Shown piece by piece: positions 22,418-30,100 of a stretch of DNA of 64,000 bases. The notes under the pieces were generated by a model. It made no database searches. It was given only the letters and a program-made list of their open reading frames with translations, and was not told the DNA's origin. Each line of letters begins with the position of its first letter. Within the stretch, counting starts at the first letter, position 1. The position numbers and the translations under genes are program-made. The stretch comes from an uncultured Mycoplasmatota bacterium (GTDB taxonomy: Bacteria > Bacillota_I > Bacilli_A > RF39 > UBA660), in the NCBI GenBank assembly GCA_947570175.1, contig CANOTJ010000006.1, positions 1 through 64,000 of the forward strand, read 5' to 3'.

Positions 22418-22625
22418 CTTAAGTTAAGGACGTGATTATACGTGGTACCACCTTATTTTGTAGTTATACTACCTCAGGGACTAAAACGCGTCACCGTTAT
22501 AAGTTTGGCTTATACAACTCCAAAGACGAATTCATAAAAGATTATTATTAGTTTTCACCAGCCACTAACTCTCTTTTAATAATTACTTTTACTACTACTT
22601 CTTTATCATAGTTTTTCAAAAACTA
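22418..22625 (-). promoter_or_regulatory. T-box riboswitch controlling pheST (Phe)
   Basis: The minus strand carries the T-box core AAGGTGGTACCACG, with the UGGN bulge that pairs to the uncharged tRNA 3' end. A terminator (GTCCTTAACTTAAGGAT, then nine T) follows, just before pheS. A TTC specifier triplet within ATGAATTCGTC (about 22528-22533) fits Phe. Low charged tRNA-Phe would stabilise the antiterminator and switch pheST on. A promoter TTGAAA / 17 bases / TAAACT is seen at 22654-22631. Confidence 0.95.
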
Positions 22626-29499: not shown

Positions 29500-29528
29500 T
29501 TGTAACAAGCTTAATCATCTAGTATAAT
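29500..29528 (+). promoter_or_regulatory. Promoter of the small membrane-peptide gene
   Basis: TTGTAA (29500-29505), exactly 17 bases, TATAAT (29523-29528). The predicted start of transcription, near 29535, is just before the 5' pairing arm at 29553-29564. Confidence 0.7.
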
Positions 29529-29599
29529 TTTTATAGGAATATTTAGTTAGTTTAGGTACTATTCTCCTTTACTTTATAAAAGTGGAAGGAGGTGACATT

Positions 29600-29692
29600 A
29601 TGAGAAAGAAAGACGAATATCTTTGCACCATCATAATACTCCTTATTATTGTGATTTTAATCATTCTAATAAAAATAGTACCAACTGTTTAA
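29600..29692 (+). CDS. 30-residue membrane peptide, type I toxin-like
   Basis: A tiny plus-strand gene among minus-strand ones. It has an excellent ribosome binding site (AAGGAGGTGACATT before the ATG). The peptide has a charged N terminus (MRKKDEY), one hydrophobic Ile/Leu-rich membrane span (about residues 9-26), and ends KIVPTV. The transcript has a strong promoter and terminator, and its 5' arm TAGGTACTATTC (29553-29564) is perfectly complementary to GAATAGTACCTA (29717-29728). A further stem, AGTACC/GGTACT, spans the stop codon. Long-range 5'-3' pairing and a short hydrophobic peptide are hallmarks of type I toxin mRNAs. The toxin role is inference, and I saw no clear antisense promoter. 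Confidence 0.6.
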   Translation: MRKKDEYLCTIIILLIIVILIILIKIVPTV

Positions 29693-29715
29693 GTCGGTAC
29701 TAATACTGTTTTAAC

Positions 29716-29756
29716 GGAATAGTACCTAGCGCTTCAAAACTAGATATTCCTTTTTT
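29716..29756 (+). terminator. Terminator of the small membrane-peptide transcript
   Basis: GGAATA (29716-29721) with TATTCC (29745-29750), reinforced by an inner CTAG/CTAG pair, then six T. Its 5' arm is also part of the sequence complementary to the mRNA 5' end. Confidence 0.75.
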
Positions 29757-29828
29757 ATTTTATGCAAGTTTCCTTGACATATTCATAATAACATAAAAAC
29801 GACTTTTTGACAAGTCGCTTTGCTTAAT

Positions 29829-29845
29829 ACTCGAAGAGTTCGAGT
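29829..29845 (-). terminator. Hairpin after tRNA-Glu
   Basis: ACTCGAA (29829-29835) with TTCGAGT (29839-29845), about 13 bases beyond the tRNA 3' end. Its layout (hairpin, then AGTATCACTCTGGTG at the tRNA end) matches repeat elements 2 and 3. Confidence 0.6.
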
Positions 29846-29857
29846 TTAGTATCACTC

Positions 29858-29935
29858 TGGTGACCAGTACGGGATTCGAACCCGTGAATGCTGCCGTGAA
29901 AGGGCAGTGTGTTAAGCCACTTCACCAACTGGCCA
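29858..29935 (-). tRNA. tRNA-Glu (anticodon TTC)
   Basis: Acceptor TGGCCAG/CTGGTCA with encoded CCA. The anticodon loop CTTTCAC is closed by CTGCC/GGCAG, giving TTC. The T-arm is CGGGTTCGAACCCG. It is the last gene of the Asn-Asn-Glu operon. Confidence 0.93.
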
Positions 29936-29939
29936 TAAA

Positions 29940-30015
29940 TGGCGCCTAATGTAGGACTCGAACCTACGACCTATCGGTTAACAGCCGAGTGCTCTACCAA
30001 CTGAGCTAATTAGGC
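29940..30015 (-). tRNA. tRNA-Asn (anticodon GTT), copy 2 of the operon
   Basis: Acceptor GCCTAAT/ATTAGGC, then discriminator G and CCA. The anticodon loop CTGTTAA gives GTT, and the T-arm is TAGGTTCGAGTCCTA. Confidence 0.95.
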
Positions 30016-30024
30016 ATAACTTAA

Positions 30025-30100
30025 TGGCGCCCAATGTAGGACTCGAACCTACGACCTATCGGTTAACAGCCGAGTGCTCTACCAACTGAGCTAATTGGGC
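30025..30100 (-). tRNA. tRNA-Asn (anticodon GTT), copy 1 of the operon
   Basis: Identical to its neighbour except for a compensated acceptor pair: GCCCAAT/ATTGGGC here, GCCTAAT/ATTAGGC in the neighbour. It is the first gene of the operon. Confidence 0.95.

Follow-up and report, generated by a model that had tools for sequence, protein, structure and literature searches.

Type I toxin-antitoxin systems easily escape detection, their components being very small and quick to diverge. Before the report made by a 2025 paper itself, they had been counted in only three phyla (PMC12390103). In Bacillus subtilis, the genes of the pairs txpA/RatA, yonT/SR6, bsrG/SR4 and bsrE/SR5 are convergent, with the antisense RNA lying over the 3' end of the toxin mRNA for about 120 nt (PMC3531473, PMC6562991). 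The toxins are short and hydrophobic (30 aa for bsrE, 29 aa for bsrH), SR6 has a length of 100 nt, the Shine-Dalgarno (SD) sequence of the bsrG mRNA is sequestered, and these systems are prophage-borne (PMC3531473, PMC6562991). A long-distance interaction between the 5' and 3' ends of the mRNA, together with anti-SD hairpins near the start site, is described for hok/Sok and AapA/IsoA (PMC6733600), the membrane toxin of tisB/IstR-1 in Escherichia coli is under LexA control (PMC8145889), and the Lpt toxin of Lactobacillus rhamnosus has 29 aa (PMC6811638).

The locus described here lies in a stretch of 64,000 nucleotides, hereafter the window, in which an earlier note had proposed a candidate type I toxin. 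This proposal is still the best reading, since an antisense gene is present and both the reading frame and the complementarity are conserved; judged from the sequence, the locus is very probably a chromosomal type I toxin-antitoxin module. Like the TxpA/BsrG-type systems, it has convergent genes overlapping 3' to 3', here by about 90 nt, and a short hydrophobic peptide. Unlike them, it occurs in multiple copies, has an mRNA with a long closing stem between its 5' and 3' ends, and carries its antitoxin promoter in a tRNA terminator. It differs from them also in the outcome of the database searches: nothing above cut-off was obtained for the peptides in Pfam and NCBIfam or for the RNA in Rfam, and the phage, plasmid and viral collections held no match to the family, so that prophage or plasmid maintenance is not the obvious role. 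As in hok/Sok and AapA/IsoA, the ends of the window mRNA pair and an anti-SD hairpin is predicted near the start; the antisense RNA of those systems covers the start region, whereas the one proposed here lies over the 3' UTR, with SD exposure mostly set by the local hairpin. The Fst-like toxins, with which Lpt is grouped, share with the present peptide a size of about 30 residues, a single span and a Gram-positive background, but no Pfam or NCBIfam model of the Fst family matched above cut-off. By sequence, the family is therefore a member of no named type I family, and by analogy it would work like the 3'-overlap systems of B. subtilis with an mRNA end pairing of the hok/AapA kind.

Organization of the locus

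The features of the locus are collected in Table 1. The promoter with perfect spacing, the AAGGAGG ribosome binding site, the 30-codon gene with one membrane span and the strong terminator reported in the earlier note were all recovered, the terminator being a local hairpin followed by a T-run. The note was also right in placing them alone on the plus strand, but it overlooked a minus-strand promoter nearby downstream.

Table 1. Coordinates and basis of the features of the toxin-antitoxin locus in the window, with the related copies cited in the text.
Feature	Position or copy	Strand	Basis or remark
Toxin promoter TTGTAA-17-TATAAT	29500-29528	+	promoter scan
Toxin mRNA 5' arm	29536-29564	+	pairs with the 3' arms
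Anti-SD/SD hairpin, CTCCTTTACTTT paired to AAAGTGGAAGGAG	29564-29592	+	predicted folds; P(SD unpaired) about 0.1
Shine-Dalgarno AAGGAGG	29586-29592	+	
Predicted toxin ORF, 30 codons, one predicted membrane span	29600-29692	+	sequence, pN/pS, hydropathy
Toxin terminator hairpin GGAATA..TATTCC and T-run	29716-29757	+	8 of 8 consensus pairs changed on both sides
Predicted antisense RNA antitoxin, about 110 nt	29668-29778	-	promoter and terminator; covariance model; start inferred
Antisense terminator hairpin AGTACC/GGTACT	29702-29676	-	terminator scan; kept in most aligned copies
Antisense 5' hairpin CAAG-GAAA-CUUG, GNRA-type loop	29764-29776	-	most conserved part of the family; 97% of cells paired
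Antitoxin promoter TTGTCA-17-TATTAT, extended TG	29813-29785	-	promoter scan; -35 spacing conserved
Terminator-like hairpin behind the tRNA operon	29796-29821	-	scan; same layout in most tRNA-linked copies
tRNA-Glu, tRNA-Asn, tRNA-Asn	29858-30100	-	codirectional with the antitoxin
Intact-toxin copies, own genome	C6 (window), C1:138936, C4, C10		
Antitoxin-only remnants, own genome	C12, C1:29917		
LexA-box copies, examples	L027, L045, L049, L063, L064, L068, L069, L133, L172, L209		

The translation of the ORF is MRKKDEYLCTIIILLIIVILIILIKIVPTV, with a Kyte-Doolittle value of 3.57 across 18 residues. The pN/pS ratios in the coding frame of the five peptide classes of the family were 0.58, 0.48, 0.27, 0.21 and 0.21, both other frames giving higher values, and on these ratios the peptides are under purifying selection. 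Selection is weakest in the class of the window (0.58 against 0.61 in frame 1, from few sequences). The small hydrophobic peptide under selection that is looked for in a type I system is found in the family.

The second element looked for, an antisense gene with its own promoter and terminator and complementary to the toxin mRNA, is found on the minus strand by sequence and conservation. The predicted antisense RNA overlaps the toxin mRNA for about 90 nt (29668-29757, between inferred ends), covering the last codons and the 3' UTR, and it matches the family covariance model R1 with an E-value of 2.6e-15, the window copy being part of the model. The U-tract of its terminator runs to about 29668 and is encoded in the last peptide codons, AATAAAAATAG; in the other classes, C-terminal lysine codons take this place. 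The AGTACC/GGTACT stem had been noticed before and is indeed there, but its interpretation as a competing stem at the end of the gene does not stand: since the scan scores a minus-strand terminator at this position, the antisense RNA more likely ends here. The 5' hairpin of the antisense RNA is nearly invariant and sits outside the overlap with the toxin mRNA; RNA stability is one possible role for it.

Among the 194 copies gathered, the antisense -35 element lies exactly 17 nt from the -10 element in 90%, any other spacing being found in at most 5%, and the -10 element (TAnnnT) has T, A and T at its key positions in 98-99%, although the pattern used in the search partly fixes the last two of its bases, which it does not do for the -35 element. 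This -35 element is kept in 135 of the 142 copies with an intact toxin as against 21 of the 32 without the toxin 5' half (p 2e-5; the copies share descent, so that this and other p-values assuming independence are too small). Such a decay after toxin loss is expected if the use of the antisense promoter is toxin silencing.

Folding and covariation of the toxin mRNA

The mRNA folds far more stably than expected from its composition, with -68.6 kcal/mol for the RNA 29533-29760; not one of 200 dinucleotide shuffles, at -37.6 ± 4.1 kcal/mol, came out as well (z -7.55). The perfect 12-base complement between its ends that had been pointed out earlier was found (29553-29564 with 29717-29728) but makes up just the inner section of a more extended duplex. 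Both 29717-29728 and 29738-29751 are partners of the 5' arm, each arm of the terminator hairpin being able to pair with it, and the minus-strand version of this hairpin is a hairpin of the antisense RNA. In 115 copies, the mean energy of the duplex between 5' and 3' arms was -24.5 kcal/mol with the copy's own partner, -12.5 with partners from other classes and -9.7 with shuffled ones. In the terminator/antisense hairpin, two-sided changes occur at all 8 pairs and 97.7% of cells are paired; the observed covariation score was reached by 0 of 500 shuffles and collapses upon a slide of one column. Loss of both the frame and the complementarity in close relatives, which the earlier note had given as what would speak against its proposal, was looked for; because scores of relatives retain both, with covariation, this objection falls.

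The same data bear on whether the locus could be a MITE-like mobile element with inverted repeats, its ORF and promoters being accidental. The many copies, their dispersed positions and the long terminal complementarity would fit such an element, which explains neither the selection on the coding frame, nor arm sequences that vary among peptide classes and yet pair inside each copy with a covariation tolerating G-U, nor a promoter spacing that is fixed outside the inverted repeat. We consider it extremely improbable and reject it on account of the frame selection and the covarying arms.

In predicted folds of the full mRNA, the SD is mostly buried in all classes, its probability of being unpaired ranging from 0.10 to 0.34, and the upstream anti-SD pairings are CTCCTTT/AAGGAG and CCCTTTC/GAAAGG. 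When the leader was removed in silico, the SD was still buried through downstream pairing, probably with CTCCTT codons within the ORF. Removal of the 3' 75 nt changed the probability from 0.18 to 0.34 in the MNKKDF class and from 0.10 to 0.07 in the class of the window, for which the 5'-3' pairing as what hides the SD is therefore unsupported. Since its removal barely or modestly changes the predicted SD exposure, we do not claim the 5'-3' stem as a translational lock; it may have a role in stability or in antisense pairing instead. The self-pairing of the mRNA described in the earlier note is thus borne out, but not its function as a block of translation until processing, the local anti-SD hairpin already hiding the SD in the predicted folds.

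Copies and distribution of the family

The peptide is intact in 142 of the copies; 19 have a broken frame with intact RNA arms and 32 lack the toxin 5' half. As the copies were found via the antisense box, toxins that have lost this box are under-counted. Homology between copies spans approximately the region from the toxin -10 to the antisense -10. In the own genome (1.38 Mb), the six model matches correspond to four intact toxins and two antitoxin-only remnants (Table 1); the peptides of C4 (MKKRTFIIKVLRLIAIILLLLTLLVIAIKI) and C10 (MKTRTFIIKVLKLIAIILFLLIIMIVVIKK) are quite unlike that of the window, and their arms differ but still pair.

A DNA search against 57 relatives from the same taxonomic family gave matches in 40, and when named genomes were scanned with the antisense box at least 115 loci were obtained, those listed being nearly all labelled as metagenome-assembled genomes of uncultured Bacilli, Tenericutes, Erysipelotrichaceae or Bacillales; Candidatus Ventrenecus and Candidatus Onthousia are among the genomes listed. 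With the antisense model R1, matches were obtained in 100 of the 145 genomes of this taxonomic family of the class Bacilli, one of which, of 1.5 Mb, has 23 copies or more; copy counts are lower bounds, since at most 23 candidates per genome were scored in the family scan and at most 8 in the class and phylum scans. In the class- and phylum-wide samples, the only R1 matches outside the taxonomic family were in two genomes belonging to other families within the class, one copy each: G313 (L292/L321) and G628 (L320). These possibly reflect horizontal transfer or misbinned contigs, and the toxin start region of L320 looks damaged. The toxin-antitoxin family hardly extends beyond a single taxonomic family of the class Bacilli.

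Antitoxin-only copies are common (for example L023, L063, L079, L085, L163, L179 and L214). Arrays of at least three copies, tandem or closely clustered, were seen at L165, L185, L094 and L125, several of them with copies about 340-480 nt apart. At L032 (G050:C10), two tandem copies with intact toxins have a diverged antisense 5' box, TATAGTATGAAGTTTCCTCC, and a possible extended -10; these boxes may represent a variant antitoxin class.

A non-toxic small membrane peptide, acting as a transporter or envelope regulator and tuned by the antisense RNA and the mRNA structure, would also be expected to show selection on its ORF, and peptides as small as this with one span can act as benign regulators. 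We nevertheless find it unlikely: that a genome can have 23 or more copies, that five peptide classes share one antisense module, that copies stand in tandem, that antitoxins are kept beside broken toxins and that the start site is doubly sequestered all fit toxins better.

Linkage to tRNA operons and LexA boxes

In the window, the end of tRNA-Glu lies 97 nt beyond the antisense box, and the antitoxin -35 element is within the terminator hairpin of the tRNA operon. This arrangement is typical of the tRNA-linked copies. A tRNA gene occurs within 250 nt past the antitoxin promoter, mostly at 92-100 nt, in 60 of the 179 copies with enough flank, as compared with 2 of 189 for the opposite flank of the module (p 3e-19); in all 60 it is on the antitoxin strand. 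The usual order is the tRNA-CCA, a trailer hairpin (ACTCGAA..TTCGAGT), the terminator hairpin containing the antitoxin -35 (CTTGTCAAAAAG and variants), and the -10; the -35 has a fixed spacing within this hairpin at the tRNA-linked loci (window 29796-29934; L023, L027, L057, L061 and others). The trailer hairpin is conserved after the tRNA-CCA of many different tRNAs.

From this linkage, always codirectional, and from a 5' hairpin nearly invariant although outside the overlap with the toxin mRNA, one could take the minus-strand RNA to be, in the main, the trailer of a tRNA operon or a small RNA acting in trans, with the peptide gene as a side passenger. Two thirds of the copies have no tRNA there and the -35 element decays once the toxin is gone, and we regard this as very improbable.

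Of 37 genomes of the taxonomic family checked for LexA, 35 have it, and the upstream regions of recA and lexA carry ACGAACAAATGTTTGA-type boxes, the own genome being included in both cases. A LexA matrix built from these recA and lexA boxes scored at least 10 bits in 41 of 115 toxin promoters and in 0 of 2300 shuffles; as a strict pattern had served to pick the boxes, only the toxin side counts as a test. The box abuts the toxin -10 in about one third of copies and in every major peptide class, at an identical position relative to the -10 in 39 of the 41 positive promoters (examples in Table 1). It is absent from the toxin promoter of the window, where the matrix score was -14; nor do the positives among the 115 promoters include any further copy from the own genome. 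The family resembles tisB/IstR-1 in the copies with a LexA box, to which the window copy does not belong, and differs from it in the peptide and in the antisense geometry.

In the same window, a T-box leader (Rfam RF00230, 109 bits) was observed at 22423-22618 on the minus strand, upstream of a 357-aa ORF.

Proposed mechanism and significance

In the mechanism that we infer for the toxin-antitoxin module, the plus-strand mRNA would encode a 30-residue membrane-spanning putative toxin and would be poorly translated, its SD being buried in the local anti-SD hairpin and the message closed by the long 5'-3' stem. A short antisense RNA, expressed from the strong minus-strand promoter, would pair with the 3' UTR and the last codons of the toxin. 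Most likely this pairing would lead to RNase III decay of the mRNA, as with RatA on txpA, because the antisense RNA covers only the 3' part, as do RatA, SR4 and SR6 (PMC3531473, PMC6562991). When antisense synthesis goes down or toxin transcription goes up, the latter through LexA cleavage in the copies with a LexA box (the window copy not being one of them), the peptide would be made and inserted in the membrane, where it would exert its presumed toxicity. The module may have some role in stress. It is conceivable, though rather doubtful, that antitoxin transcription is tied throughout the lineage to that of tRNA operons, the antitoxin -35 lying within the tRNA terminator, and toxin transcription in about one third of the copies to the SOS response, so that the family would sense DNA damage as well as an arrest of tRNA synthesis.

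Taken together, these data describe what is apparently an undescribed, many-copy type I toxin-antitoxin family of uncultured gut Bacilli. A covariance model built from the family recovers at least 23 copies in one 1.5 Mb genome and hundreds across a taxonomic family of uncultured gut Bacilli. With a single antisense chassis shared by five peptide classes and antitoxins outlasting their toxins, these copies are natural experiments on toxin-antitoxin evolution, and the link between antitoxin supply and tRNA operons is directly testable.
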